Origin: a virus
Virus record (IMG/VR): IMGVR_UViG_3300031673_000370
Location: 1-28,078 of that record
DNA length: 28,078 bases
Reading direction: 5' to 3' (one strand)
Below the pieces are notes generated by a model. The model ran no database searches. It saw only the letters and a list, made by a program, of their open reading frames with translations, and was not told where the DNA came from. Position 1 is the first letter of the stretch, and each line of letters begins with the position of its first letter. A program made the translations under genes and the position numbers. Shown one piece after another: positions 2,330 to 19,977 of the stretch.

Positions 2330-3351
2330 TATTCATCTTTCAAAAACGCAAAACCAGAACCCACATTTACAGGGTCCGCTTCCAAGCTATCATCATGGAA
2401 TGCGACCCACGTTTCGGCTCCGTACGTTATTTCCTCGCCAGAGTCATAGATAGTGACATTCAAATATCGCACACCTTCCGGCCAGCCTAACAGTGAGTAA
2501 TTGTCGTCACTTCTTCTGAGAAGCGTATAAAGAGGACACATTGCAGACATCGCGTTATAAGCATCCGGGGAAAGCGAATAAAAGAATGAAGCTAATCCTC
2601 CTCTATGCTTTGTTGGTGAATAATCACCAGCGCTTGGACATGGAAATATTATTTGATCATTCGCAGGAGCTACTCCGCCACGGCCCGATATTCTCCAACT
2701 TGCCACGCTATCAACGTTTACATATACCGCTCCATTAAGTTCTCCTGTCTGTGAAGGCACGCTAACAAAGTACCTTGAATCATCGTAATTAAAAGTGCCC
2801 TGATAATCATACCAAGGTCTTCTGCTGCCCATCGAAGCCGTGAAGTATTGACCGCCGGTATAAGCTCCCTGTTTAACAAGCAAACCAAAACTCATAAACT
2901 GGAATTTTCCCGCTGTTATCTCGACCACGATATGGACCGACTCGCCGTTGAAAAAGAAATAATAAGCCGGAATCGCCGTTGTTGACATTGGCGACATTAC
3001 ATTGCCAAAAGATTTATCACTTAAATCTGCATTTTCAGGATATCCCGGTTGAACATGCCAAAGTTCACCACCATCATACCCGGTCGATCCATTGACAATA
3101 AGACCTGTTACCGTACCATCCGCTCCTGAGTAATTATCTTCTGTGATTAAAGTCACTCCGGTTTCGGCAATGGCCGAACGAAAGTTGAAATACATAACAG
3201 TTGCGTCACCCGCTGTCTTATGAACATGCAATCTATACCCGGCACCAACCGCTGAATGATCATCAACTGTCCAGCCCTCGGCCAGCAATGCAACCCGCAA
3301 TTTATCCAACAGGTCATTCGGGCCCGTCGATGTTCCTGCGTAATATCCCAT
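2329..3351 (-). CDS. Virion structural protein (tail-associated), 340 aa
   Basis: A beta-rich protein with no signal peptide or membrane segment. It begins MGYYAGTSTGPNDLLDKLRV and continues with a helix ending in LLAEGWTVDD. That opening (a short helix selecting one of several subunits, then 'AEGWT') is one I know from uncharacterised phage virion proteins encoded next to tail genes. Aromatic residues are frequent (about 40 Tyr and Phe in all), as is common in surface-exposed tail proteins. It ends with a TAA that overlaps the next ATG, and starts six bases after the 415-residue gene. The 415-residue neighbour is probably a partner. Function beyond 'part of the tail or its decoration' cannot be read from the sequence. 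Confidence 0.55.
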   Translation of the reverse strand: MGYYAGTSTGPNDLLDKLRVALLAEGWTVDDHSAVGAGYRLHVHKTAGDATVMYFNFRSAIAETGVTLITEDNYSGADGTVTGLIVNGSTGYDGGELWHVQPGYPENADLSDKSFGNVMSPMSTTAIPAYYFFFNGESVHIVVEITAGKFQFMSFGLLVKQGAYTGGQYFTASMGSRRPWYDYQGTFNYDDSRYFVSVPSQTGELNGAVYVNVDSVASWRISGRGGVAPANDQIIFPCPSAGDYSPTKHRGGLASFFYSLSPDAYNAMSAMCPLYTLLRRSDDNYSLLGWPEGVRYLNVTIYDSGEEITYGAETWVAFHDDSLEADPVNVGSGFAFLKDE

Positions 3352-3357
3352 ATTTTA

Positions 3358-4605
3358 TTACTCCAGTAATAATGCCCAGAAATCGCTTCTGTCGGCGTTT
3401 GGCACTATAGGAAACGCCACATAGGTGTCACCGTCGATTATAAATGTATCCTCGGCCGCAATCCCGCCAAAGGCCGGTACTGCAAACACGCCTTGAAGTG
3501 GACCGAAAATATGTTTACTCGGATTGCCTATCATCGGTACCGCATTAAACACTGGATAACTTCCGTCGATGTTTTCTCGTAATTTAGTGCTGAATACATC
3601 CTGATAATATGATTCAAATTGATCTGAACAATTGTAAGGCCATACAATATTTGTATTCTGTAATGTGGAACCTGTTTTACCAAATATTTTTATCCAGCTT
3701 GTCCCCTGTAAAACCTTCAGTGTTGCGTAATCCTGAGTCGTATCAAATATTGACGCCGTACATACAGTCGCTGCGTTAGCGTAAGGATTAGCAAATCCGC
3801 GATGACTGGCATGAACTGAACTATAACGATTATAAGCAACCGTTGCATCCGGACACGCCGCACCGCCAACAACCATCGGGTACGGAAACTGAGTCGGCAG
3901 GCCGTAAGGCAAAGCGAAGCCGAGATAACCGGCAGGATAAACCGTCGAGACTTTCGGCACAACAACGAATCGCCTGCCGTTGGCGACGAGCCAGTATTGA
4001 ATCTTGCCCTGCCACAAAAGCAATCGGGCCATCCTGCCCTGAGTCAGTCCCGGCATGTACTGTAATTCAACATCCGAATAGCTCGTCATTCCGGCTATCC
4101 GCCAGTTGTAATAATCGTCACCAGCCGATTCGACCGTCTGAATGGCCGAGTAAATCTCATCGGTCCCCGCCGTGCCCGGGCCCATCAGGATCAATTCGTA
4201 GCCGCCGGCGCCATCGTAATCGGTATCGTACCGCATGGCCGTATATAACTCGGTCGCACCCAAACCATCGGCAACGTCGAACGTGAACGAATCGGTAGCG
4301 ACAAACGCCGTATCGCCCGCGATTATTGTAAACGCAACTATCCCGTTATCGTAAGGCGTCCCGACCGTAGCCGCCGCCTGGGCCCCCGAAACAGATCCGG
4401 TGACAGTAAAGTTAGTAGCCGATGTCGCCGTAAGCGTCCAGGTCTCATCCACAGGGCTCGTACTGGCCCGCTCTGCCGAGACGTAGCCATCACCCGTATT
4501 GGCACCCGCTGCGATATCATAGGCCATCTTGGCGTCGCACAGGAAGCCCTTGACCGCTATCAGTAAATTCTTATGACCGTCTGCATATCCGATTTTGAAA
4601 GCCAT
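3358..4605 (-). CDS. Virion structural protein with beta-sandwich-like N-terminal insert, 415 aa
   Basis: The first 30 residues (FKIGYADGHKNLLIAVKGFL) look like a docking helix and strand. Residues about 45-110 form a small Thr/Ala-rich domain (TWTLTATSATNFTVTGSVSG, later IIAGDTAFVATDSFTFDVA) of a kind that recurs in unrelated phage structural proteins. The middle and C-terminus (YNWRIAGM, MARLLLWQGKIQYWLVANGRR, then a Gly/Pro/Tyr-rich part) resemble uncharacterised tail-associated virion proteins. The gene sits seven bases after the tape measure stop, where lambda-like phages encode tail-tip components, and is followed by a 340-residue protein of similar style. A role as a tail-surface or tip protein is inference from position. 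The TATC-rich spacer before the ATG has a weak SD. Confidence 0.55.
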   Translation of the reverse strand: MAFKIGYADGHKNLLIAVKGFLCDAKMAYDIAAGANTGDGYVSAERASTSPVDETWTLTATSATNFTVTGSVSGAQAAATVGTPYDNGIVAFTIIAGDTAFVATDSFTFDVADGLGATELYTAMRYDTDYDGAGGYELILMGPGTAGTDEIYSAIQTVESAGDDYYNWRIAGMTSYSDVELQYMPGLTQGRMARLLLWQGKIQYWLVANGRRFVVVPKVSTVYPAGYLGFALPYGLPTQFPYPMVVGGAACPDATVAYNRYSSVHASHRGFANPYANAATVCTASIFDTTQDYATLKVLQGTSWIKIFGKTGSTLQNTNIVWPYNCSDQFESYYQDVFSTKLRENIDGSYPVFNAVPMIGNPSKHIFGPLQGVFAVPAFGGIAAEDTFIIDGDTYVAFPIVPNADRSDFWALLLE

Positions 4606-4612
4606 ATCAATT

Positions 4613-7138
4613 TCACCTTAACAAATTCCGGTTACGGATTGCGTGTTGGATGAAAACTTTCTCGCCCTCTTTGCTTTTCATTTCCTCAATTATTGCTTGC
4701 CGTCGGTCATCCACGATAATACTTCTGACGTGAACCTCAATCGGCCGATCTGTTTTTTGTGTGCCCCCGGCCCCTTTCGGAATCACCCTTTCTCCTCTCT
4801 GCAGGATCGCCGGCACTTCATCGGACCCTAAATGAAATCTCGGCGCGTTCGCGAACGTCCCGAACGGAACCGGCTTTCTGACACCGTCAATACCGGCTAT
4901 ACCGCCGCCGTGCAGAAAATACGGATTGCCTCCGCCCGCCGCCGATCCGCCTGCGGTTATCATACTACCGCCGCCAGGACCATAAAAGCCAAGCCCACTC
5001 AGAGTACCATACATTATTGACTCAGCAAGCATCTGTGACGCCATCCTCGAAAAAGCTCTGCCAATATCCTGAGCAAAGCCTGTCATCGCATCCTTGAAGC
5101 TTGCACCTTCGGAAATCATTGAATCAAAAGAGTTGGCCATAGAATATTCAATGGACGCCGCCGCATCCGCCCACTTTTTCGGCATGTCACCCACTCTTTT
5201 TTCAAGATCGTCAAAATAGTCATCCAATGAATTTTTTTCATTCTGGTAAGAGTCTTCACTCAATTTTTCAAGCTGATCGTAGTACCAACTATTAAGCAGG
5301 GCTTTGTCGTCTATGAATTTAGAATATTCGTCATATTGCAGATCGATAAGTGCCTTCTGCGCATTGTAATAATCATCCCCAAACTCTCCCATGTCACGGT
5401 ACATATCCGCCGTTATTCGTGTCCGTTGATATGCCAGATCGTTTGCGGCTTTTGTGGCCTCGTCATTTATCTGTATATCTTCTTTTGTAATATTACCAAC
5501 TGCTTTTAAGGCTTCGCTATATCGTAAAGTTTCTCTCGTAATCCCCGGAAGCTTTTCGAGCCAATTGTCGGCATCCATCGCAAATTGCTGAAAAGGCGAA
5601 AGGTTTGTATAGTCCCTTGATCCGGACTCCTGAAATATGCGGTCAATTTCATCTTTCGTCTGTTGCGTAATTTGCTTGAGCCTCGAAGTATCAGGCTTGT
5701 ATTCTATAAGCGGATAAGCCTCTTCCAAAACAGGCTGAAAGTACCCGGTAGATAATTTTTCGGAAGCCTTCTGGGATGCTCTTTGACGTATAGCCGCCTC
5801 AGCTTCTTTGGTTATGCCTCCTGAATATTCCATCTGTGCGAGAAATTCATTTATGAGGCGTCTATGCTCTAAGCCCTGTGCTATTCCTCGCTTTACCCAT
5901 ATACTGATATTGCTGCCCAGAGGCAAAAAGATATCTTCTAACACAACCATCAATGACTTGCCAAAGCCCCTGAACAATTCAAGCGACACATCGAGGCCAA
6001 GCTTTATTCCAGCCTTCCAGTCATTCCGCATAAATTCAATGAATCCGCTCAGCTTATCCGCCGCCTTCTCAGCATATTCAATAATTTTTTCTTTATGCTT
6101 AAGAATGAGTTCGGTCAATTCAGTCATTTGACCGGCGAATTCCTCGCCAACCTCAACTGATACAATCTTTACGAGTTGCCAGAGACGTCGAAATCTTTGT
6201 GCGAGAATGTTCGTATTTTTTCCAAACGCCTCCTGCGTCATACCTGCGGATCTCATAGCTTGCTCATAATCATCGAGATATCCTTTCTGGTCTTGAATAA
6301 GTTTACTTATTGATGTTCTCGCTTCAACCTCAGTAAACATATCATTTATAGTCGATACGGAAAGTACGCTGAGCTCTTTCAGTACGCCAGAAAGGCCCTT
6401 GGCCGCCAGGGCTTCTGTTGATAATACAATGCCGTGTTTAGCTGCTAATTCAACAGCTTGCTCCTGTTTTCCCTGTAGCGCAATAATGCCCTGCCTTAAT
6501 CCCGTTATGGCTTCATCTGTGCTTATGCCGCCGCGTGTTATTGTGGCTAAGGCGGCAGATACTTCCTCAAGAGCCACACCCGCACCTGATGATATTGCAG
6601 TCACCCGGCCTATAGCTGGAGCCAATTGAGCAAAAGTTGTTTGTCCTTTGTAAACAGTGCTGAACAAAATATCAGAAACACGACTTGCCTTGTCGGCAGC
6701 AAGACCATAAGCATTTAAGATTCCGGTTATTGCATAGGTCGCTGTCCCCGTATCTGTTATGCCGGCCTTCGCTGAACGGACTGCTACATCGAGAACCTCG
6801 ATAGCCTTATCTGCTGAAATTGAGGCCGAAAGAATGTTATACAGACCTTCGGATAGGGTTTTTGTCCCTTCTCCGAATTCTATAGCCATGCCCTTTATCG
6901 CCTTCGAATAAGCCGGCATGTATCTCATGGTCTGTTCGTTTAGCATGGTACTGACTTGTGCCATTTGCTCTTCGAAGCTGGAAAATGCCTTAATCGAAAG
7001 GCCCATATAAGCCGTTATGGCAAGCATGGCTCGCTTGGCGCTTCGCGATACTTTAGACATTGCCCTATCAAAATCCATAACGCCGGCATGAGCGCCGCTT
7101 GAATCAACCTTCAATCGTAATGATGCTACATCTGCCAA
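4613..7138 (-). CDS. Tail tape measure protein, TP901 type, 841 aa
   Basis: This sets tail length and lies in the tube lumen before ejection. Residues about 50-260 are the TP901/PhageMin_Tail core: SSFEEQMAQVSTM, then GTKTLSEGLYNILSASI and a long helical stretch with LEEVSAALATITRGGISTDE. A helical middle contains hydrophobic segments near residues 355-415 that may cross the host membrane during DNA entry. A second coiled-coil stretch lies around 480-670. The C-terminus has the usual Gly-rich tail: LHGGGIAGIDGVRKPVPFG, then a FHLGSDEVPAILQRGERVIP motif. The rule of about 0.15 nm per residue would give a tail near 125 nm, if all residues count. It starts five bases after the stop of the frameshifted chaperone, as in lambda G-GT-H. 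Confidence 0.93.
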   Translation of the reverse strand: MADVASLRLKVDSSGAHAGVMDFDRAMSKVSRSAKRAMLAITAYMGLSIKAFSSFEEQMAQVSTMLNEQTMRYMPAYSKAIKGMAIEFGEGTKTLSEGLYNILSASISADKAIEVLDVAVRSAKAGITDTGTATYAITGILNAYGLAADKASRVSDILFSTVYKGQTTFAQLAPAIGRVTAISSGAGVALEEVSAALATITRGGISTDEAITGLRQGIIALQGKQEQAVELAAKHGIVLSTEALAAKGLSGVLKELSVLSVSTINDMFTEVEARTSISKLIQDQKGYLDDYEQAMRSAGMTQEAFGKNTNILAQRFRRLWQLVKIVSVEVGEEFAGQMTELTELILKHKEKIIEYAEKAADKLSGFIEFMRNDWKAGIKLGLDVSLELFRGFGKSLMVVLEDIFLPLGSNISIWVKRGIAQGLEHRRLINEFLAQMEYSGGITKEAEAAIRQRASQKASEKLSTGYFQPVLEEAYPLIEYKPDTSRLKQITQQTKDEIDRIFQESGSRDYTNLSPFQQFAMDADNWLEKLPGITRETLRYSEALKAVGNITKEDIQINDEATKAANDLAYQRTRITADMYRDMGEFGDDYYNAQKALIDLQYDEYSKFIDDKALLNSWYYDQLEKLSEDSYQNEKNSLDDYFDDLEKRVGDMPKKWADAAASIEYSMANSFDSMISEGASFKDAMTGFAQDIGRAFSRMASQMLAESIMYGTLSGLGFYGPGGGSMITAGGSAAGGGNPYFLHGGGIAGIDGVRKPVPFGTFANAPRFHLGSDEVPAILQRGERVIPKGAGGTQKTDRPIEVHVRSIIVDDRRQAIIEEMKSKEGEKVFIQHAIRNRNLLR

Positions 7139-7142
7139 ATCA

Positions 7143-7861
7143 TTATCCCTTCTCGTTTTGCTCGCTTGCCCAATTCAACCATACCTTATCCATACTCTTT
7201 ATCAGCTTGAGGTATTCAAGGCGGTCCGCAACAGCGATACCATAAAGCCCTGATATTTTGATAATCTCTCCGGCCAAAAGTGGACATGGGCCGAAACCGT
7301 ATTGCCTGCATTCATTGATTTGCCAAAACGATTCCCACACATACTCAAGGTCCTCGTAAAGCTCCGGCATATTGTCGAGGGCCGGGGTCGATTTGCCCGC
7401 CTCGCTTCGAGCTTTCAGGAATTCAATATCATTGCCCCAGGCTAACTGCCACCTGAGACAATCGCAGAGTTTTTTCCCGACGCCTTCTGAAACTCCTTGC
7501 GGAACCATTCTTTTTCATCTGCACTGCCCAAAACGAAAATAGGCATATCCGGAAGAAGTTCGAATATCCTTAAAGCTTCTTTGGGGCTGAAACTTAGCTG
7601 CTTACCGTTCTCTGTCAAGTTCTTCCACCCCTTAAGCAAATGCTTTGCTATGGCAGGCTTGATGATTTCGACACGCTCTGTAAACTCTATCCCTTTCGTC
7701 CTAATTTTCTGGCGATAGGGCTCTAATAAATCGGAACATGCCTTGCGAAATTCCTGAGAATTTGTATTGCCTATTAAGAGTTCGGTATCGAGATCATATT
7801 TAACCCATACGCCCTTATCCTGCTTATCGGGATCGAGCATTAGTTGCTGAATATCAGCCAT
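7143..7861 (-). CDS. Tail assembly chaperone, long form made by -1 frameshift (G-T fusion), about 239 aa
   Basis: The short chaperone frame (7861 to 7442) and a downstream frame ending at 7143 overlap, and the second is in the -1 phase. A slippery run lies in the overlap, so ribosomes that slip read about 131 residues of the first frame followed by about 108 of the second (first residues LCDCLRWQLAW). In lambda the equivalent gpGT recruits tube subunits to the tape measure while gpG coats it, and the ratio is set by rare slippage. The T-like part carries a pattern seen in DUF1799-like T domains: an acidic stretch with YVWESFWQINECRQYG and a LAGEIIKISGLYG motif. An internal ATG at 7508 opens the second frame alone, but no strong SD precedes it. 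The tape measure starts immediately downstream, as expected. Confidence 0.75.
7434..7478 (-). promoter_or_regulatory. Programmed -1 frameshift signal: slippery site plus stem-loop
   Basis: On the minus strand the sequence reads GGGAAAAAAC at 7478-7469. In the first frame this holds two overlapping canonical heptamers, G GGA AAA and A AAA AAC. The second ends at 7469. After a nine-base spacer, the arms GTCTCAGG (7459-7452) and CCTGGGGC (7441-7434) pair over eight positions, two of them G-U, around a ten-base loop that contains the first-frame stop codon TAG. Slippage by one base leads into the open T frame. Slippery run, spacing, stem and frame all agree with the lambda G-T signal (GGGAAAG). 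The efficiency cannot be read. Confidence 0.8.
7442..7861 (-). CDS. Tail assembly chaperone, short form (lambda gpG-like), 139 aa
   Basis: The 139-residue length is almost that of lambda gpG (140). It starts after a clear SD (GGAAAGGA, about eight bases before the ATG at 7861). The N-terminus (QQLMLDPDKQDKGVWVKYD) has the 'plus extra substrate-like strand, WVKYD' look common to G-type chaperones, followed by EFRKACSDLLEPYRQKI and a helical part to LFSPKEALRIFELLP-like residues. Its last residues, after the slippery site, are NSAIVSGGS. It would bind tape measure and tube protein in the cytoplasm before tail assembly and is absent from finished virions in the lambda system. Similarity to known families is by pattern only; the position before a T-like frame and a tape measure gene is the strongest support. 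Confidence 0.75.
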   Translation of the reverse strand: MADIQQLMLDPDKQDKGVWVKYDLDTELLIGNTNSQEFRKACSDLLEPYRQKIRTKGIEFTERVEIIKPAIAKHLLKGWKNLTENGKQLSFSPKEALRIFELLPDMPIFVLGSADEKEWFRKEFQKASGKNSAIVSGGS

Positions 7862-7936
7862 ACAAAAATCCTTTCCTTTCCACTGTTAACGAAACGCTGA
7901 TAATTGCGCACACTGTTAAGTCGTTTCACAAATTGA

Positions 7937-9859
7937 CTATGCTGCGAACCGAACGATCCTAATCGTAATTTCTTCCGTTCCTTCCATGAACGCCTGGAAC
8001 GTGCAAGGCACCTTGAAATCGTCGCCAATGCCGGCCCCGGAATGTCTCTGGCCGTCCGTTATCTTCAAGCCAGGCATATCGAACACGTAACCGTTGCCGT
8101 CGGCATCCTGAAACACCTTGGCAAGAGAAGTGTTGTCAAAATCCAGGTATTTGTCGTAAAGTGTCTTGCTCTCGTAATAGGCCGTGAATGAACCCGAGAC
8201 GTTGATACTGTTCGCTCCGAAGCCAAACGGTCCAAGTGTCCCGACCTTCAGGCGTTCTCTCAGGTTGTTATTGATCGTCAAGGAGCAATCGAGCACGTCG
8301 ATAGCTGCTGCGTTTTCGTAAACTCCCTGAACATGGTCGATGGAGTTCAGAACGTCGTTATCGTTCGGATCCTCGTACCCGTCCCCGCCGCTTGCCGTCT
8401 CGGACGTCTCTATCTGTCCCATCACGCCGAAGCTGCCGGTGATAATACCGTTCGTCCCGACGGTGAGGGTCATCTGATTCAGCATACAGCCCTTGAATAA
8501 TGCAAGCTCTTGTGTCAGGTCCGTATATGTACGCTCGAAGTTGAATGAGTTCTTTGCCACACCGTTGACGATAGAGCTGCCCTGCTTGATTGTGCGTGAG
8601 GCTCCTTCCGCTTCGGTAACAAGAGTAGCGTAAACTATAACCTTCGCAGCCGTCGCCGATGCGACCTTAAAGTAGCCGTTATCTGCCGCTGCCGTAAAAC
8701 CTGAAGCTCTGATCCATTGGTTTGCAACTATGCTCCCGAATCCGTTTCCCGAGTCATTGAAAGAACTGTCACCGCTTGCCACGCTGATCGTAGATGCAGT
8801 GACAGTGACCGGGGCCGTCCAGCCCGCCCCTGCCGTCGTCGTCCCGAGAGTCGCTGCGTCAAATTCGTTTGTGCCCGCTGCAAATGTTTCGGTAGTTGCA
8901 ATGGCATTACCGACCAGTCCGGGCAACATCGCCGTCAAAACAGCAATGTCTGTGGCGAATGCGGCAATTGTAACCGTTGGGTGCGCCGTCATAAGGGCGG
9001 CATATCCGGTCCCGGGCGTCCCGCCCAGAACAAAGGCTTCCACTATGCTGGCCTGGGTGTTCGCCGTTGCCGCCCCGACCTCGATATGGCCGTCGATATT
9101 ATCCAATGCACCATTCATATCGAAGTAGTAAACCTTCGTGTCGATTGTCATCGTATCGCCGTCTGCGCCGGCCGCCTCGGTTCCAAGCGTGACAGCATCG
9201 AAAATATTCAAGTCAGAATCGAAGGTCTCTGTTGTCGGTATCGCATCGCCCGCTACGCCCGTTGCTATTGCGGTAACGATAGAATCGTTCGCAGCAAATG
9301 CCCCCATTCTAACCAGTGGATGCGGAGTCACAGTTGCCGTGTAATATTCCATTCCCGCGGTCCCGGTACCATTGATCGTGGCGACCACGCTCGCTTGCGT
9401 AATCACTGCAGTTGTACCGATTTGAATATCATTGGCCTGGGTCATAATGGTTTTGAATCGATACACAGTCGTGCCGATTGTCATAGTATCGCCATCGATG
9501 GGATTCACATCCAATGAGAGCAAACCCTGCGATGAATTACCGCCCGTACAGTTCGTATCGAGAGTCAGCAGGCCCTGGGCCTTGACGTTCGCAGACATTA
9601 AAACGCACGCCAGAAAATCGTCGAAGCTCCCGTAGCTTAATTCGAAATCCAGGCCGCCCGATACTGCCACCCTTGTTCTCGACACGCCGACAATCTGCCT
9701 GTCCGGGCGGATCTCGTTACTGTTGGCGATGTCCGTGTCCTGCTTGAGGCTTTCCCCGGTCAGTCTCACCTTCTGCAAATTGCAGCCAGTCACCTGCTGG
9801 CCGAACGTGGATTCCTGAGCGTATGCCAGCAATACTTGTGAAATGTCACTTACAGTCAT
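7937..9859 (-). CDS. Tail tube protein with large inserted cassette, 640 aa
   Basis: Residues to about 93 (QESTFGQQVTGCNLQKVRLT, IRPDRQIVG, LDFELSYGSFDDFLACVLMS) and the C-terminal 300 residues (RTYTDL, ELALFKGCMLNQMTLTVG, FGVMGQ, DCSLTINNNLRE) match the Phage_tube_2-like tail tube fold, which polymerises into the tail around the tape measure. Between them, about residues 95-345, sit two related modules opening DGDTMTIGTTVYRF and DGDTMTIDTKVYYF. The same cassette is inserted in the 400-residue cement protein. Tube proteins of this family usually have about 300 residues; this one is about twice that length only because of the insert. I chose the second ATG at 9859: AGGGA lies six bases before it but abuts the first ATG at 9865. 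Inserts of this kind normally face outward from the tube, which is inference here. Confidence 0.85.
   Translation of the reverse strand: MTVSDISQVLLAYAQESTFGQQVTGCNLQKVRLTGESLKQDTDIANSNEIRPDRQIVGVSRTRVAVSGGLDFELSYGSFDDFLACVLMSANVKAQGLLTLDTNCTGGNSSQGLLSLDVNPIDGDTMTIGTTVYRFKTIMTQANDIQIGTTAVITQASVVATINGTGTAGMEYYTATVTPHPLVRMGAFAANDSIVTAIATGVAGDAIPTTETFDSDLNIFDAVTLGTEAAGADGDTMTIDTKVYYFDMNGALDNIDGHIEVGAATANTQASIVEAFVLGGTPGTGYAALMTAHPTVTIAAFATDIAVLTAMLPGLVGNAIATTETFAAGTNEFDAATLGTTTAGAGWTAPVTVTASTISVASGDSSFNDSGNGFGSIVANQWIRASGFTAAADNGYFKVASATAAKVIVYATLVTEAEGASRTIKQGSSIVNGVAKNSFNFERTYTDLTQELALFKGCMLNQMTLTVGTNGIITGSFGVMGQIETSETASGGDGYEDPNDNDVLNSIDHVQGVYENAAAIDVLDCSLTINNNLRERLKVGTLGPFGFGANSINVSGSFTAYYESKTLYDKYLDFDNTSLAKVFQDADGNGYVFDMPGLKITDGQRHSGAGIGDDFKVPCTFQAFMEGTEEITIRIVRFAA
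8826..9575 (-). repeat. Inserted two-module cassette, copy in tail tube gene
   Basis: About 750 bp encoding two related modules, each opening DGDTMTI and holding ATTETF and LGTTTAGA motifs. Boundaries are taken where similarity to the cement copy (20264-21029) fades: 'AQG-LT' at the start and AGA at the end. Bases 8979-9160 are identical to 20427-20608. The remainder is similar but diverged. Confidence 0.85.
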
Positions 9860-11677: not shown

Positions 11678-12190
11678 CTATGCACCCAAATAGGTTACAT
11701 TCCATGTCACGGTCAAAGTATCGTCCGCACCCTTGGCGATCTGGGCGGCAAATACGGCGATTGCGTAGGTGTGAGTCTCATCGGCTTCGCCCGCGGCGGT
11801 TGTGTTATCGACAATAGCAACGCGATTGATTGTGGCGTCCGTACCTTCACCGGCAGCCCACAGCCTGCGGAACTGTACTATATCGTCGGTTGCCCCTGCC
11901 TTTGGCGTGCTGTCATCGAGGGCCTTGGCCGAACCAGCCACATAATCGCCGACGGCGATAAAGCTGCCAGCCCCATCTTTTGATGCTGCCGTCGAGGCCG
12001 TTCCGAGCTTCATGCCCCAGGTTGCGTAAGCGGCTGTAAATATTGCCTGCGCAGCGAAGAAGTCGCCCTGTTCCGTGACGAGATTATGCGTGACCTGCCT
12101 TTGCTTGATTTTGCCGTCCGGACCTCTAAGCACGGCAATGACCTCACCTCTAAGCCTCAAACCATCTTTTTTCATTTGTTCTGCTTGCAT
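11678..12190 (-). CDS. Small virion protein with NLVT motif, 170 aa
   Basis: It begins with a charged stretch (LRLRGEVIAVLRGPDGKIK) and the motif THNLVTEQGDFFAAQA. This 'hNLVt..G' pattern recurs in short phage virion proteins next to fibre or neck genes. The remainder is Ala/Thr-rich with predicted beta strands (INRVAIVDNTTAAG, TLTVTWNVTYLG). It is the first gene after the strong terminator at 12221-12265, so it should need its own promoter or read-through. SD GAAAGGGA lies before the ATG at 12190. Its role (capsid or tail decoration, or a fibre-adaptor subunit) is not resolved. Confidence 0.55.
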   Translation of the reverse strand: MQAEQMKKDGLRLRGEVIAVLRGPDGKIKQRQVTHNLVTEQGDFFAAQAIFTAAYATWGMKLGTASTAASKDGAGSFIAVGDYVAGSAKALDDSTPKAGATDDIVQFRRLWAAGEGTDATINRVAIVDNTTAAGEADETHTYAIAVFAAQIAKGADDTLTVTWNVTYLGA

Positions 12191-12544: not shown

Positions 12545-12994
12545 CTATCTATCCTTCCAAATATCCATTAAACAATATTTTTCAATTAGCTCAATTTGCG
12601 ATGGCGGTATAGGTTCGCATACAATTACAGCTTCCTCCTGTCCCGTATGATATTTAAGATTTTCAATATGACCGCTATGATGGAGGGTGATATTAGCATC
12701 AGGATCGTTCGGGGCATGTAAAATCTTATCTCTATTGAATTTTGCACGTAAAAGAACTGCTTTGACAGTATTCTTGTAGGCCATTTGATACAGTATGCAG
12801 CCCCTGTGGGCCAGTCCCGTAATCACCATATCCCAAATCCAGATACCGACAATATAATCTCTTTTAAAAATAGGTACGAATTCCTGCCTGCGGATTTTAT
12901 AAGGTTGCAATCCTTCAACTTGAATCTTCTTCCAACATTCCTCGCTGGTATAATGATAACCTGTTGAAAGTTTTGTTTTCTTGGTCTTGTTCAT
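12545..12994 (-). CDS. Hypothetical protein, possible ADP-ribosyltransferase-like fold, 149 aa
   Basis: The region GYHYTSEECWKKIQVEGLQP (residues 12-31) resembles the opening of ART-fold proteins (KptA, DarT and relatives: a 'H.T....w..I...GL.P' pattern where H and T line the NAD pocket). IVGIWIWD and VLLRAKFNRDKI strands follow, then near the end a helix EPIPPSQIELIEKY of the sort that ends these domains (residues 127-140). The order is suggestive, but no catalytic Glu or Arg can be placed with certainty. The gene follows the stop of the giant fibre gene by one base (TGAAATG) and lacks a strong SD, so it may be translated by coupling. It may modify host proteins or counter a defence, or act within the virion; this is inference. 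Confidence 0.5.
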   Translation of the reverse strand: MNKTKKTKLSTGYHYTSEECWKKIQVEGLQPYKIRRQEFVPIFKRDYIVGIWIWDMVITGLAHRGCILYQMAYKNTVKAVLLRAKFNRDKILHAPNDPDANITLHHSGHIENLKYHTGQEEAVIVCEPIPPSQIELIEKYCLMDIWKDR

Positions 12995-12995
12995 T

Positions 12996-15900
12996 TCAGT
13001 TATGAGTTTGCCTCATTACCATAAATGCCCAGGCGGCCTTCATTAGACCGCTAAGCTGATGTATTTCTTCATCCGTAATATTCATGCTGTCGTTTATCGA
13101 CCGAATTGCCACAGATACTCTAATCATGGCGTCGAGAGTTCCTATGGCATCGCCCTGTGTCCGCAGATAATCGATGAGCTTTGTGACCGAATCGGATATG
13201 CCGAGCGTGTCTGTTAATGCTATGAGCCTGCCTAAAGCAATGCCGTCTGTGATCCCCTCCGAATCGCTGATGATCCGGCTGACCGCAAAGAGGCTCGCCA
13301 TGGCGTCCGTCAAGCCGAGATTATCTGAAAGAACCCGGAGCGTTACAAACACCCTCTCCGTACTGTCGCTTATGCCCAGGGCGTTATTGATTGTCCTGAA
13401 ATAATTCCCGACACCGTCGGTATCTATTGCATCCGTGATGCCAAGCGAATCCGCAACCGTTCTTAGCACGGTCCAGATCCGGCCCATGTCATCGGCAATG
13501 CCCATTGAGTCCGCTATCGTCTTGACGGCAACATAGACGCGGGACGCCGAATCGGTAAGCCCTATTGAGTCGGCAAGAGATTTGCCTTCACCCTTCGATT
13601 GTGAATCCGTGATACCAATGTTCTCTTGCACCATCCGAAGCATCACAAGCAATGAACCCAGGGCATCGGTCAAGCCAACCTCATCGCTCTCTGTTTTCAC
13701 GATAGATAATTGCTTTGTGAAATCATCCGTCAGGCCCAAAGCGTCCGTGACAGCCAAAACCCTTTTCAATGTAAGGCCGTCCGTAATACCCTCACTGTCG
13801 CTTACGAGCTTGCTGATGGCAAACAGGCTTACTACTGAATCGCTTATAGCAAGGCTTTCAGATATAACACGCAGGGCGATGAAAGTTTTGGATGTGCTGT
13901 CGGTTAAGCCGATGGAATTGTTTATTGTCTTAAGAATATTGCCGATACCCTCGGCATCCATCTCGTCCGTAATGCCTAAACTGCTGGCAAGAGTCCTGAC
14001 AACCGTCCACACGCGGCCGATATCGTCAGCCATTCCGAGAGAATCGGCTATCGTTTTTAAGATCGCGTAAACGTGGGTCACTGAATCGGTAACGCCGATA
14101 GAATCCGCAATCACCTTACCCTCATCTTTGGTTCGGGAATCGGATATACCCATCGCATCGAGGACCGTCCGCAGGATAGACAATAGGGAAGTCAATGAAT
14201 CGGTCACGCCAACAGGATCGTCCTGAGTTCTAAGAATAGTCAGCAGCCTCGTAAGGCTATCTGTCATGCCCAGGCCGTCCGTCACCAACAATACTCTGCT
14301 TAAAACAACGCCGTCCGTTATGCCTTCGCTGTCACTTACAAGCCGGCTGACGATGAACAGCTTTACAACAGAGTCCGTCAAGCCGAGATTTTCAGACAAG
14401 GTCCGCAACGCAACATGGATCCTGGAACTGCTGTCGGTCAGGCCCAGGGCATCGTTCATTGTTCGCACAAACGCCTCGCCGCCGGGCACGAAATCCTCGG
14501 ACATTAAGTCCGTCATGCCAAGATCATCGGCAACAGTTCTCAGAGCCGCCCAGACACTTGAAACGCTGTCGGTCAGGCCCAGGGATTCAGCTATAACCTT
14601 AAGGGTGCTGCAAATTCTATTTGCTTCATCGGTCAATCCTATGCTGTCTGCAACCGTCCTCATAATTGCAAACAACGATGTCAGGGAATCAGTCAAGCCT
14701 ACTTCATCGCTTTGTGTTCTTACGAGTGCCAGCAGTTTTGTAAAATCATCGGTCAGGCCAAGAGAATCCGTCTCTACCAACATTCTGGCCAATACCGTCC
14801 CGTCGGTCAGGCCCTCGCTGTCGCTTATGATCCTGTTGATAGCCAGGAGCTTTACAACCGAGTCCGTCAGTCCCAGATCGTCCGACAATGTTCGCAGGGC
14901 GATATGAAGCTTAGAACTGCTGTCAACAAGGCCAAGGCTATCGGCAACCGTGCGATATTGCCCCTTGGTTGCGGCCATAAGATCGGTGATTCCCATATCA
15001 TCAGAGACGGTCCGGATCTCCGCCAATAAGCTGGATATGTTGTCGGTCAGGCCAAGCGACTCGGCGAGGACCCTGACAACAATAATAATTCTTGTCGCTT
15101 CATCGGTCAAACCAAGCGAATCAGAAATAATCTTAGCTTCACCTTTCGCAGTAGAATCTGCAATGCCTAACGACTCGAGTATTCTTGCGGCAATACCGTT
15201 AATCATGCCGGCGTCTGTCAGCCCGATCGTATCGGCGACTATCCTGTCGAGAACGCTGATGCTCGACGGCAAATCGGTTATGCCAAGCGACTCGGATATG
15301 ACCCTCAAAATGACGGAACTGCGAACCGCATCGTCCGTTAAGCCGAGATTGTCGGCGATAGTACGAAACTGGCCCTTGGTCCCGGCCATTGAATCGGTCA
15401 AGCCCAAAGTCTCGGCCAACGTTTTGTTGAATACCACCGAAGCAATCTGAGCATCGGTCAATCCAAGCGACTCAGCCAACGTCTTAATAAATCCCGCCGA
15501 AGCGACTTGCTCATCCGTCAATCCCAGAGATTCGGCGAGGACCCTAATCGCACTCTGTCCAAACGTCCTGGCATCTGTTACGCCGATTGAGTCGGCAAGC
15601 ACCTTTCCTTCGCCCTTGAATTGAGAATCGGCAATATCGAGTGAATCCGCCAATGTTCGCAAGATACCTTTCGTTGAAATATTTGCATCTGTAATTCCAA
15701 GAGACTCAGCCAATGTTCGCAATGCCACGATGTTCCTGCTCTTGTCGTCTGCAACACCCATAGACTCGTCGAATCCGCGAAACATTGTTTTTGTATGCGT
15801 ATTCGCATCTGTTACGCCGAGAGTCGCTGCGAGAATGCGAATCAAAGCGAAAAGCTTTGTCTGAGCATCTGTTATACCAACGCCATCATTGAACGTTCGT

Positions 15901-17018
15901 ATGTAATCGTCACCTGCCGGTGCAACAACCTTGAACGCCACCATCGCATAGGCTTCGTACCAATAAGCGTCTTTAGCGCCTGATGAGACATTTGCCATGC
16001 CCATTTCAAGCGAATTGACCAAAGCCTGAGACCATGCAGATGCGCCCTGCGGAGTATCGGCGGCATAAAGTTTAAGCCATGTAGGGGCAGTTGGGTCGTC
16101 TATGTTGTCATTTACGTAGTCACCATCAGAAACAATGACCTTGTTGCCGTAGTCATCAGCACCGCCGCCATCCGTTTCGTAATACCACATGAAATTGACG
16201 GCTACGATAGTATCGCTACCGCCAATACCGGCAAGGTTGCCGCTGCCACATTCATCCATCACAACAGAATAACGATATATATTAGCATCACCATCCGATT
16301 GACAACCGTCAGTTATAACTGGCGGATCGCTGTCGAGATATGTATATAATGCATCAGTGATTTTTCCTAAATTTCCCCAAGCGTCCTCATCAGGGTATCC
16401 CGAAATAGTATCTTGGTCAGTTCCCTCTCCTACCGGGCGAGCGGCTAAAACTCGGATGTCACCGAGGTCAGAACTGCTTAAAGTGTCACTGATAGCAAGA
16501 TCGTCAAAATATATATCTGCACTTACTGACGAACCAATACCTAATTCAAATCCATAACCGGATGATCCCCAATACGCCGAACTTAAATCTACCTCGTCAT
16601 GCTCAAGACTACCATCGATCCAAACATAGCTTTGTGTTAAGCTTAAAGATGCAAACGATATTCGATGCCACTGGCCGGTACTTAACTGGGTTGTGCCATC
16701 AAACTTTTTTGTGTTTGCTACATATAAGTCAAGCTCGCCGTTTGTAGTTAATCTAATATTTGTCATTAACGTGCCGGCACTGCCGCATATAAGAGTGTCT
16801 GCATTGGGCAAGGCGTTGATATATATATAAAATGTTCCTGCACGTACATAACCTGACGCCGCTAAGAACATAACATGAGCCTCATCCGATGATGGATTAC
16901 ACCGCATCCCATAGTTACCAGAATGAGCCGCTCCAACAACAAACGTAGGCGAACCGACAACGCTCGCCCAAGCGTCTGCCCCACCAGTTTCAAAACCATC
17001 ATGGAATATGAATGCCAT
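12996..17018 (-). CDS. Giant fibre-like protein, LamG-like N-terminus and about 48 SLGLTD repeats, 1340 aa
   Basis: Residues 1-185 look like a LamG/concanavalin-type domain (FHDGFETGGADAW, HSGNYGMRCN, GQWHRISFASLS, YVWIDGSLEHDE, IYFDDLAISD). Residues about 190-365 are a Gly/Asp-rich linker domain with a WYYETDGGGADDYG strand. Residues about 371-1319 consist of about 48 repeats of 20 residues, with consensus near R-T-L-A-D-S-L-G-L-T-D-S and a variable ten-residue segment. The last 20 residues (LMKAAWAFMVMRQTHN region) are a hydrophobic cap. A fibre or adhesin on the virion is the natural guess because it sits beside beta-helix and virion genes, but the domain order (binding-like domain at the N-terminus) is opposite to most tail fibres. 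Start: ATG after TAA of a micro-gene. Confidence 0.7.
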   Translation of the reverse strand: MAFIFHDGFETGGADAWASVVGSPTFVVGAAHSGNYGMRCNPSSDEAHVMFLAASGYVRAGTFYIYINALPNADTLICGSAGTLMTNIRLTTNGELDLYVANTKKFDGTTQLSTGQWHRISFASLSLTQSYVWIDGSLEHDEVDLSSAYWGSSGYGFELGIGSSVSADIYFDDLAISDTLSSSDLGDIRVLAARPVGEGTDQDTISGYPDEDAWGNLGKITDALYTYLDSDPPVITDGCQSDGDANIYRYSVVMDECGSGNLAGIGGSDTIVAVNFMWYYETDGGGADDYGNKVIVSDGDYVNDNIDDPTAPTWLKLYAADTPQGASAWSQALVNSLEMGMANVSSGAKDAYWYEAYAMVAFKVVAPAGDDYIRTFNDGVGITDAQTKLFALIRILAATLGVTDANTHTKTMFRGFDESMGVADDKSRNIVALRTLAESLGITDANISTKGILRTLADSLDIADSQFKGEGKVLADSIGVTDARTFGQSAIRVLAESLGLTDEQVASAGFIKTLAESLGLTDAQIASVVFNKTLAETLGLTDSMAGTKGQFRTIADNLGLTDDAVRSSVILRVISESLGITDLPSSISVLDRIVADTIGLTDAGMINGIAARILESLGIADSTAKGEAKIISDSLGLTDEATRIIIVVRVLAESLGLTDNISSLLAEIRTVSDDMGITDLMAATKGQYRTVADSLGLVDSSSKLHIALRTLSDDLGLTDSVVKLLAINRIISDSEGLTDGTVLARMLVETDSLGLTDDFTKLLALVRTQSDEVGLTDSLTSLFAIMRTVADSIGLTDEANRICSTLKVIAESLGLTDSVSSVWAALRTVADDLGMTDLMSEDFVPGGEAFVRTMNDALGLTDSSSRIHVALRTLSENLGLTDSVVKLFIVSRLVSDSEGITDGVVLSRVLLVTDGLGMTDSLTRLLTILRTQDDPVGVTDSLTSLLSILRTVLDAMGISDSRTKDEGKVIADSIGVTDSVTHVYAILKTIADSLGMADDIGRVWTVVRTLASSLGITDEMDAEGIGNILKTINNSIGLTDSTSKTFIALRVISESLAISDSVVSLFAISKLVSDSEGITDGLTLKRVLAVTDALGLTDDFTKQLSIVKTESDEVGLTDALGSLLVMLRMVQENIGITDSQSKGEGKSLADSIGLTDSASRVYVAVKTIADSMGIADDMGRIWTVLRTVADSLGITDAIDTDGVGNYFRTINNALGISDSTERVFVTLRVLSDNLGLTDAMASLFAVSRIISDSEGITDGIALGRLIALTDTLGISDSVTKLIDYLRTQGDAIGTLDAMIRVSVAIRSINDSMNITDEEIHQLSGLMKAAWAFMVMRQTHN
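13060..15905 (-). repeat. Protein-coding tandem repeat: about 48 units of about 60 bp, with 534-bp higher-order unit
   Basis: Units of about 60 bp encode about 20 residues each (core LADSLGLTDS). The sub-motif SDSEG(I/L)TDG marks corresponding positions at about 13242, 13776, 14310 and 14799. The first two intervals are exactly 534 bp, the last is 489 bp, lacking one unit. So a nine-unit block was duplicated, with one block short by a unit. Bases have diverged at many synonymous and other sites, so the duplications are old. It is a gene repeat, not a CRISPR array. Confidence 0.9.
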
Positions 17019-17108: not shown

Positions 17109-17270
17109 TTACGCCGCTCCTCCTATGGCAACGCTGTAATCGTAAATAATCGGCGAAGGTTCAGGGCCTTCTTCAGTATTATCTATCAGGACATGCGGCT
17201 CGCCCAAAATCCATTCATATACAGACTGAGTAGCTGCCGGTTCGCCAAGAATCCATTCATTCTGTGCCAT
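17109..17270 (-). CDS. Small hypothetical protein, 53 aa, with EWILGEP repeat
   Basis: ATG at 17270 overlaps the TAA of the beta-helix gene (TAATG), with a GGTGAG SD a few bases upstream. The frame runs to TAA at 17109. The protein has a repeated motif: NEWILGEPAATQS then YEWILGEPHVL, eighteen residues apart. The rest (EEGPEPSPIIYDYSVAIGGAA) is acidic then Gly/Ala-rich. It could be a small virion adaptor between the beta-helix and repeat proteins, or a subunit of them, which is inference from position. Another possibility is that the 53- and 28-residue frames are pieces of an older, longer gene. Confidence 0.6.
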   Translation of the reverse strand: MAQNEWILGEPAATQSVYEWILGEPHVLIDNTEEGPEPSPIIYDYSVAIGGAA

Positions 17271-18931
17271 TAACTCACCACAGGCTTAATGTCAACGTCT
17301 ATGTATTCACTGGCATCCTCATACTCGGCCAGATAAAACCAGAGATAAACCCAACCTGTTCGTAAGGGTGTAATTGTTACTGAGAACGCTGTCCATTCAG
17401 CATCGTTTGTTATGGTTTGAGTGGAATCAATCTCCGTTCGAGCGGCGGATGCCCCGTTGGATAAGTATGATGCACGGAGAAATGCTTCGGATGCTGTCAA
17501 GGCACTGTCCCACGCAGAGCCTGTTCTCGCATAGACGGTTATCGTTATCTCGACAGATGCCGATGCCCAGATGCGAGAGAATCCTCGTAGAGTATCTCCA
17601 AGAATCAAAGGAAAGTTAGGCCCACATTGGTCACTTGAAAGCATCTTCGCATAAGAGTCCGCTCCGCCGCTTCTTGGCGAGGATGTCTCTCTCGTAATAA
17701 TCCCAGAAGGAAGAAGCGTTCTATGCGATTCAAATACAGCATCCAAATCTTCTGTAAAAGTTCCGCCAGTATAATCGTAAGAGCCAAAAAAACTATCCCA
17801 TGTCCCATTATAGGAACAATTTCTTGCCCAAATCACCCCGCCGTATTGGCTTTGAATGCATGAAGTGCTAAAATTATTAGAGGGTTCAAAAATACAATCT
17901 AATAGATAGCACGTACCAGCATAACAATAGATGCCGATTTGAGAACCAAGTCCAGAACCGGCGTCAAATGTACAATTTTTAACTAATATCAATCCGGAGG
18001 AAATATATAATTGACCATTTATATGATTGATGTCACTAAAAGAACAATTATCAATAGTAGCATGGCCTCCTGTTTTCACCCATAAAGCAGAATATGTCGC
18101 TGAATCAGAAAAAGAGCAATCTTTGAAATACCATCCTAAAGACCTGTCAACCTGCCATCCTCCAGCAGTATCCGCCCATTGTCTAATATCGAGCCTTTCA
18201 ATCCACCAAAAGTCATCTGTTAATCCGAGAGCTTGATACTGAGCATCTTCAAAATCCACAATAGGCTTGACATCAGAGCCGTCGCTCCAAGGGTCATTAG
18301 TAACCGAGTCACAACCTATAATACTAATATAATCATCAACAGTTCCATCTTCATCGAAAGTAATGTCCTTCGCTTCCGTACCCTGGTCCCAAGTGATATT
18401 TGCCCTGAGAAAAGCCCTGTCTCCTGCCGTTCTAACCGTATCGGTCGTGTACTTGGTTATGGTTTTCCAGGCATTGCCGGTTGACAAGCCATCGTTTCCA
18501 TCGTTGCCGTTGTCGTAGTCGATATAGTAATCAGCCTGGTCGTGCAGATTAGTCCTCACAACAAGATCTTTTTCACGCAGTTCAACTTCTTTGAGACAGA
18601 CAGCCAGCTTGTCGAAAAGCCTCTGCTCCTTCTGGTTGGCATAATACCATTCATCCATCTTGGCCTTAACTGCGTCCAGTATTTCAGCATCGGATTTCAG
18701 CGCCTTACCATCGTCAGAAACTTTCACATCGAAGTTCCATTCTCCGACAAGACGCTCGCGTAGAGTATTTATTTTGCGAACGTACATCGGAATAAGACAA
18801 TCAAAATCCTTTTGAGAGCGATGCGTTATATCTCGATACTCGATCTTCTGCTCCCATGCCGCCTGATTCAATTTCTTGTAATCGGCATGAGTATTTATTT
18901 CATTTATAAAATAGTCCAATGACAGGTTCAT
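17270..18931 (-). CDS. Beta-helix virion protein with an unrelated helical N-terminus, 553 aa
   Basis: Residues 1-125 are helical and charged (DYFINEINTHADYKKLNQAA, DCLIPMYVRKINTLRERLVG, YYANQKEQRLFDKLAVCLKE) and look like a docking or connector domain. From residue about 132 a right-handed beta-helix follows: ADYYIDYDNGNDGNDGLSTG and NAWKTI, then repeated strands (WYFKDCSFS, ATIDNCSFSD, ILVKNCTFDAGSG, CYLLDCIFEPSN, WARNCSYNG) as in tailspike and pectate-lyase-like proteins. Residues about 420-553 are a jelly-roll-like end (SVEITITVYARTGSAW, GWVYLWFYLAEYED). A tail- or capsid-attached host-binding or polysaccharide-acting protein is likely; no catalytic residues are certain. SD AGGGAGGAAAG precedes the ATG. 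The position after a head-tail connector suggests the N-terminus anchors to the neck. Confidence 0.65.
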   Translation of the reverse strand: MNLSLDYFINEINTHADYKKLNQAAWEQKIEYRDITHRSQKDFDCLIPMYVRKINTLRERLVGEWNFDVKVSDDGKALKSDAEILDAVKAKMDEWYYANQKEQRLFDKLAVCLKEVELREKDLVVRTNLHDQADYYIDYDNGNDGNDGLSTGNAWKTITKYTTDTVRTAGDRAFLRANITWDQGTEAKDITFDEDGTVDDYISIIGCDSVTNDPWSDGSDVKPIVDFEDAQYQALGLTDDFWWIERLDIRQWADTAGGWQVDRSLGWYFKDCSFSDSATYSALWVKTGGHATIDNCSFSDINHINGQLYISSGLILVKNCTFDAGSGLGSQIGIYCYAGTCYLLDCIFEPSNNFSTSCIQSQYGGVIWARNCSYNGTWDSFFGSYDYTGGTFTEDLDAVFESHRTLLPSGIITRETSSPRSGGADSYAKMLSSDQCGPNFPLILGDTLRGFSRIWASASVEITITVYARTGSAWDSALTASEAFLRASYLSNGASAARTEIDSTQTITNDAEWTAFSVTITPLRTGWVYLWFYLAEYEDASEYIDVDIKPVVS

Positions 18932-19512: not shown

Positions 19513-19977
19513 TTACTCCTGATCTTCGGAAGCGTTTGTTTCTTCGTCCGAGCCGGTTTCTTCGCTGTCGGTAGCTCCGCTCGCTTTCTCGGCTTCTTGA
19601 ATTGCTTCGAGAATATCACCCCTTTTTGTCACTTTGGATACGTCGATATTGTTCAGTTTGGCGTAGTCCCTGAGTTTAGGAATGGTCATATTGACCAGCA
19701 ATTCAGGCTCCGGCTCAGGCATAATCTCGGGCTCAGGCTCCGGCTCCGGCACAATCTCCGGCTCAGGCTCGGGACCATCCAGATTCGCAGTCCCGGATCT
19801 CAAAATATCCATAGCATCGACCGGCCAGACTTTTATCCATCTCTTTTGAGCTATGAGCCAAAGACTGACCTTGCCCCGCTCGTCAATAGCCTCAGTAATC
19901 GGCCTTGCACTTTTTCTCGCCGCTTTCATTGCCTCATCCTTTTGTGCCAACATGACATCGACATTGATATCGACCAT
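19513..19977 (-). CDS. Head-neck protein with Pro-Glu linker and Rho-N/SAP-like C-terminus, 154 aa
   Basis: Residues 1-65 form a folded part (MVDINVDVMLAQKDEAMKAA, WLIAQKRWIKVWPVDA). Residues about 68-93 are a Pro-Glu repeat (PEPEPEIVPEPEPEPEIMP), a stiff linker. Residues about 95-125 (MTIPKLRDYAKLNNIDVSKV and TKRGDILEAIQEA) match the Rho N-terminal or SAP-like helix-turn-helix that small head-completion proteins often carry, and the tail is acidic (DSEETGSDEETNASEDQE). SD GGGGAA precedes the ATG at 19977. The acidic tail and HeH-type fold hint at DNA contact at the head vertex or a host-mimicking tail; neither is shown. Confidence 0.65.
   Translation of the reverse strand: MVDINVDVMLAQKDEAMKAARKSARPITEAIDERGKVSLWLIAQKRWIKVWPVDAMDILRSGTANLDGPEPEPEIVPEPEPEPEIMPEPEPELLVNMTIPKLRDYAKLNNIDVSKVTKRGDILEAIQEAEKASGATDSEETGSDEETNASEDQE

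Follow-up and report, generated by a model that had tools for sequence, protein, structure and literature searches.

A 48-unit repeat gene and its small partner gene may encode a rope-like accessory fibre in uncultured tailed phages

Here, we found in an uncultured phage that the gene for a very long repeat protein (hereafter the array) forms a pair with a small gene, u170, as it does across many unrelated phages. This association is missing from PHROGs, where the two families, phrog_12240 (array) and phrog_5417 (u170), are both annotated 'unknown function' with no link between them. The pair was analysed in a 28,078-nt stretch of DNA (the window), namely positions 1 to 28,078 of the IMG/VR record IMGVR_UViG_3300031673_000370. 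We propose, as a reading that we regard as evenly balanced, that the array is a rope-like accessory fibre of the virion, dressed by u170 beads, anchored near the neck by its C-terminus, and carrying an outward-facing lectin-like head at its N-terminus. A sequence-only reading of the window had described a fibre-like protein alone; we keep the fibre but find it to be half of a two-gene module, the partner having been missed there.

The array is real and contains 48 units (Table 1), in agreement with the earlier count of about 48 SLGLTD repeats of 20 residues. Its units follow the consensus R-T-[VI]-A-D-S-L-G-L-T-D-S-V-T-R-L-L-A-I-L, in which D11 is invariant among the 20-residue units and G8 almost so; most units are 20 aa long, and variants of 18, 19, 22, and 25 aa occur. 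The self-similarity of the protein at lag 20 reached z 22.5, and the ORF matched the phrog_12240 profile (1.1e-27). Tandem Repeats Finder made no call on the array DNA because the copies are just ~60% identical. The Pfam matches of the array (TAF, AAA_lid_5, and Homeodomain) were rejected as repeat noise, with no single stretch passing alone. A tblastn search of cultured phages with the array yielded no convincing match, and the matches in Aminay and PhiCh1 were artefacts on the strand opposite to the genes. PhiCh1 does carry invertible tail-fibre genes with ~10-residue SQTAMDAVSD repeats (L200:4532-5902 and L200:1946-3232).

Table 1 Features of the array gene and its partner in the window
Feature	Position	Strand	Description
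Array ORF	12996-17018	minus	1340 aa; N-terminal head, 48-unit array, short C-terminal tail
48-unit array	13014-15899	minus	residues 374-1335
N-terminal region	15903-17018	minus	residues 1-372; varies among relatives
Higher-order block A	14466-14954	minus	8 units (17-24), 489 bp; without the 18-aa KGEG-type unit
Higher-order block B	13932-14465	minus	9 units (25-33), 534 bp
Higher-order block C	13398-13931	minus	9 units (34-42), 534 bp; 59% aa identity to B
Higher-order block D, partial	13104-13397	minus	units 43-47
Last unit and conserved C-terminal tail (KAAWAFMxxRQTH)	12996-13103	minus	presumed anchor
149-aa gene between array and partner	12545-12994	minus	no family match; kept in L004, L047, L105
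u170 (phrog_5417)	11678-12190	minus	170 aa, presumed bead or adaptor; array neighbour on the same strand

Relatives were sought in IMG/VR with a DNA pattern of three GxTD at 20-residue spacing, which returned at least 119 stretches; at least 92 arrays, mostly in viral contigs, were left after removal of low-complexity matches such as the GVTDGVTD-type loci. Among the matches listed, uncultured tailed phages carry the repeat at more than 80 loci, and complete arrays have 10-58 units (median 18.5). The suggestion that unit number varies in relatives was borne out, with 16 units in L137, whose N-terminal domain is that of the window protein, 33 in L091, and 48 in L105. Matches in genome contigs were mostly single chance hits, L137 being the only true relative with a partner. 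Several further observations were made in this set: one contig (L104) carries two adjacent GITD array genes, at 1384-6090 (58 units) and 6358-7968 (16 units); in large proteins of Nitrosarchaeum and Nitrosotenuis (L145, L176, and L177), a small number of GxTD units are spaced 20 residues apart; and, among the matches listed, the glycosyltransferase family phrog_2170 lies near arrays in eight loci (e.g., L021:703-1899).

The array gene sits among the head-tail connector genes and not after the tape measure gene. Going downstream, the gene order in the window is terminase, portal, head morphogenesis, scaffold, major head protein, two unknowns, HNH, Ad1 adaptor, beta-helix protein, array, 149-aa gene, u170, 161-aa gene, Hc1, Neck1, tail terminator, tube, chaperones, tape measure, and tail tip. 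The position between Ad1 and Hc1 is no more than suggestive of attachment at the tail vertex; in L077, the array lies upstream of Ad1. The 149-aa gene is absent in L008, L022, and L091, where just 4 bp separate the array from its partner; this gene, which is confined to close relatives, is probably not part of the array module and may be an accessory gene. Directly upstream of the array, a right-handed beta-helix protein (17270-18931; Beta_helix 9.1e-7) is possibly another virion appendage, and a short tandem repeat (19703-19770; 30 bp, 2.3 copies) was seen within the HNH/endonuclease VII gene.

The two ends of the array protein differ in conservation. The C-terminal motif KAAWAFMxxRQTH is common, with small variations, to about 11 relatives in the clade of the window. 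The first ~190 residues, which lie at high coordinates because the gene is on the minus strand, appear LamG/jelly-roll-like; this lectin-like domain is common to the window protein and L137 (51% identity across the whole alignment), and the N-termini of L105, L047, and L091 are different. Other domains in the array proteins of relatives are Laminin_G_3, Gly_rich_2, BNR/sialidase, GH123, fn3, and DUF4082. The conserved C-terminus and variable N-terminal domains together point to a C-terminal anchor and a free N-terminal head. The sequence-only reading of a LamG-like domain at an end unusual for a fibre tip holds for the arrangement of a variable lectin-like N-terminus and a conserved C-terminus, but less so for LamG itself: the window domain matched the jelly-roll lyase 2zzj weakly (E 0.005), and the Laminin_G_3 Pfam profile matched three of 36 relatives (best 3.4e-16) and not the window protein.

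The partner gene recurs far more often than any other neighbour. When same-strand neighbours were clustered, the u170 family was present in 47 array loci and the next family in 11, among the matches listed. The window u170 matches the phrog_5417 profile (2.9e-8), as do 40 of the 43 partner proteins. In otherwise unrelated phages, u170 is always on the array strand, upstream or downstream, and often 4 bp away. A search of whole records found u170 in 28 of 48 array records among the matches listed, most of those without it being short; for array records of at least 30 kb, our own count is 21 of 22. Another 36 records from the pattern scan included seven with u170; on our reading, the arrays there fall below our length cut-off or lie at the end of the locus. 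Neither u170 nor gp80 was found for the arrays in G046, G059, G065, and G081. In G001, G024, G053, and G078, the u170 matches cross in-frame stops, which may reflect pseudogenes, an adjacent frame, or a different genetic code. That u170 is the only neighbour common to most array loci favours a partnership of rope and bead.

The AlphaFold model of u170 (pLDDT 84) was then compared with known structures. Foldseek gave tail-fibre and tail-collar proteins in a viral library and no significant match in the PDB. When the Foldseek list was realigned, the top 11 PDB matches were all phage virion proteins, and the next, unrelated one had Z 4.4. The structural Z was 9.5 for the HFTV1 tail, 8 for phi812 and A511 gp105 (8.0 for the latter), 7.0 for T4 gp8, and 6 for neck proteins. 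Gp80 of GP4 fibre I (8jou_a) aligned over 113 of 136 residues (rmsd 3.6) with Z 7.3, which is below Z 8 and within the range of common arrangements. The predicted fold of u170 appears to resemble that of phage adaptor proteins, including gp80. By sequence, u170 and gp80 showed no homology (hhalign probability 1.1), and the window u170 had no Pfam match, PF23140 (Gp80) included; its relative L117 matched PF23140 weakly (best 5.7e-5; 24.5 bits, below the 27-bit cut-off). Of the unit-like N-termini noticed by eye in u170 homologues (L054, L072, and L106), just that of L106 came near significance (i-E 0.0037). The baseplate wedge/arm proteins T4 gp8, A511 gp105, and phi812 share the predicted fold at ~10% sequence identity, and we know of no comparable repeat protein beside them.

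In fibre I of the Ralstonia podophage GP4, an elongated rope protein reportedly links five gp80 dimers at the tail vertex. The window pair is like this fibre in that a small, putatively gp8/gp80-type protein is encoded beside a 20-residue-period protein (a long neighbour with z 22.5 in the window), near head-tail components; in GP4, the small protein is present in many copies (10 gp80 chains, PDB 8jou). The differences are that u170 does not belong to PF23140 by sequence and that the GxTD arrays reach 48-58 units. We propose by analogy that the array may work like GP4 fibre I, but we do not file the window pair as a member because of the absence of a PF23140 match. The study of GP4 fibre I (Zheng et al. 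2023, JMB 435:168258) is cited in PMC10925440 and PMC11784390.

A similar gene arrangement was detected in 19 gp80-family loci, consisting of 18 from cultured phages and the record G071. In 17 of these 19 loci, a nearby gene was significantly self-similar at lag 20, versus one among 61 further genes in these loci (Fisher p 3e-14, a value that overstates independence as the loci are partly related, most being from actinobacteriophages or one podophage group). This gene adjoins the gp80-family gene or, in two cases, lies one gene further; after trimming of the Gly-rich domain, the lag-20 signal rose in most loci and 20 was the top lag in most actinobacteriophage cases, and PF23140 membership was confirmed for ten small proteins of the sampled loci. 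G071 carries both pairs, a GITD array with u170 and a 20-residue-period protein of LSGxGxL type (LSGxGxLSxDV) followed by a PF23140 Gp80 gene, whose product GP4 gp80 (8jou, 10 chains) matches at 1.7e-14; this LSGxGxL pair (L189:664-1866) is a second rope-like pair within that phage. In BcepIL02, gp55 (bead) and gp56 (rope) are both annotated as virion-associated, with the PHROGs category head and packaging. About 11 twenty-residue units were counted by eye in gp56, which, set against the ten gp80 chains, fits one unit per bead, the two numbers being from different phages. In mycobacteriophages, minor tail proteins beside gp80-type 'head proteins' (e.g., Aminay gp26/gp27, phrog_416/phrog_240) also have the 20-residue period (z 21 in Aminay). 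The Aminay repeat protein resembles the array in having a small partner gene beside it, there of the gp80 family, and has a Gly-rich domain of a type found in two array relatives; however, its repeat motif is another one, and its Gly-rich domain is C-terminal, whereas that of L105 is N-terminal. The motifs of the various ropes are dissimilar (GxGxAxLxL in BcepIL02 gp56, DxxGxTD in the window array). Searches of solved structures with rope candidates did not find the GP4 rope chain in PDB sequences. Both results count against the rope-and-bead reading, as do the lack of sequence homology between u170 and gp80, their modest structural Z, the partial relatedness of the sampled loci, the arrays with neither u170 nor gp80, and the poor AlphaFold model of the array. 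The recurrence of a 20-residue-period neighbour at gp80-family loci, the presence of both pairs in G071, the virion association of gp55 and gp56, and the virion-protein matches of the u170 model favour it.

Under the rope-and-bead reading, the product of the array gene would be a long fibre of the virion, similar to a rope. Each of its 20-residue units may form a weakly predicted strand-turn-strand element, unstable as a lone chain. Many u170 copies would sit on the rope, as gp80 dimers reportedly do along the GP4 rope. The conserved C-terminus would serve as the anchor; its likeliest site is near the head-tail neck, in keeping with the position of the genes, and the variable lectin-like domain at the free end would contact the host surface. 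The number of units would set rope length and hence bead number, and plausibly reach; it would change through loss or gain of single units and blocks.

The main rival, which we consider possible but distinctly less probable, is that the array is a self-sufficient, homotrimeric, beta-structured shaft, with u170 as a single adaptor to the neck or baseplate, in the manner of T4 gp8 or A511 gp105 in their baseplates. The best structural matches of u170 include baseplate and adaptor proteins (A511 gp105, phi812, T4 gp8, and neck proteins) besides gp80, and its viral-library matches are tail-fibre and tail-collar proteins, both of which suit such a role. An AlphaFold monomer model of ten array units reached just pLDDT 37 and hinted at two strands in each unit; an obligate trimer would likewise not fold as a lone chain, and the result fits both readings. 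On the other hand, the array has a period of 20 and not the 15-residue repeat with a Gly/Pro turn of triple beta-spiral fibres (adenovirus and reovirus), its units of 18, 19, 22, and 25 aa are commoner than one would expect in a regular trimeric shaft, and the tie between the gp80 family and 20-residue arrays would require a separate reason.

As for changes in unit number, the array shows a nine-unit order. The marker SDSEGxTDG starts (plus strand) at exactly 13242, 13776, 14310, and 14799, just as first reported, and its steps in protein order are 163, 178, and 178 aa (489, 534, and 534 bp). The predicted 534-bp off-diagonal proved to be the strongest self-match of the array DNA, and in the protein lag 178 came second after lag 20. 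Registered blocks were 0.596 identical, versus 0.456 +/- 0.011 when unit order was permuted (z 12.8). Growth by blocks as well as by single units is thus supported by register and markers, but the block duplications are ancient and not ongoing. Blocks B and C share 59% of amino acids and just 40% of third codon positions, and identical residues use the same codon in 38% of cases versus 33% expected, synonymous sites being nearly saturated. Codon identity this close to expectation argues for ancient duplication, and the amino acid identity kept meanwhile argues that block positions are held by selection. In L105, which is complete with 48 units, the marker steps are 178 and 178 aa (534 bp throughout), and an 18-aa unit, TAMDAMAISDTVSKGEGK, stands where block A of the window has none; the best reading of the 489-bp step is thus that one 18-residue unit was lost and three residues, net, were gained.

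The same identities (59% versus 40%; 38% versus 33%) would also suit a nine-unit order that is a structural register under selection, equal to one superhelix turn, with block duplication merely its origin. This explanation concerns the block structure and is compatible with either the rope-and-bead or the trimeric-shaft model; we consider it rather improbable. Relatives have other unit-order periods (z ~4 or more): besides nine (window, L105, and L047), we detected eight (L104), seven (L091 and L049), four (L031 and L100), and three (L030, L107, and L055). Moreover, L091, with its seven-unit period, misses two units (38 aa) at two sites that lie roughly one block from each other, so that no single superhelical turn is required. 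It is very improbable that the phage carries the array as a moron, its product being a repeat protein of the bacterial surface or a secreted one and not part of the virion: although GxTD triplets occur in the large thaumarchaeal proteins too, the gene lies inside the connector run in the window, L006, L047, L077, L091, and L105, the partner has a predicted virion-protein fold, and inspection by eye revealed no clear start of signal-peptide type.

Overall, these results raise the prospect, to which we give slightly less than even weight, that 20-residue-period arrays with unrelated motifs and a bead gene of gp8/gp80 fold constitute a general, modular class of tailed-phage fibre, in which unit number fixes bead number. 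About 900 public phage records have a gp80-family gene, whose neighbour in the sampled records, usually a 'minor tail protein' or hypothetical, has an unannotated 20-residue period. If true, such a class would extend to hundreds of mycobacteriophages ('minor tail' and 'head' pairs) and to uncultured phages with a GxTD array and phrog_5417. Should the rope-and-bead arrangement prove general, a testable role would emerge for two anonymous PHROG families and for a gene pair common in mycobacteriophages, that of an accessory fibre adjustable in length through its repeat number, and an ancient, selected nine-unit order would offer a way to ask whether the units along one rope are interchangeable.
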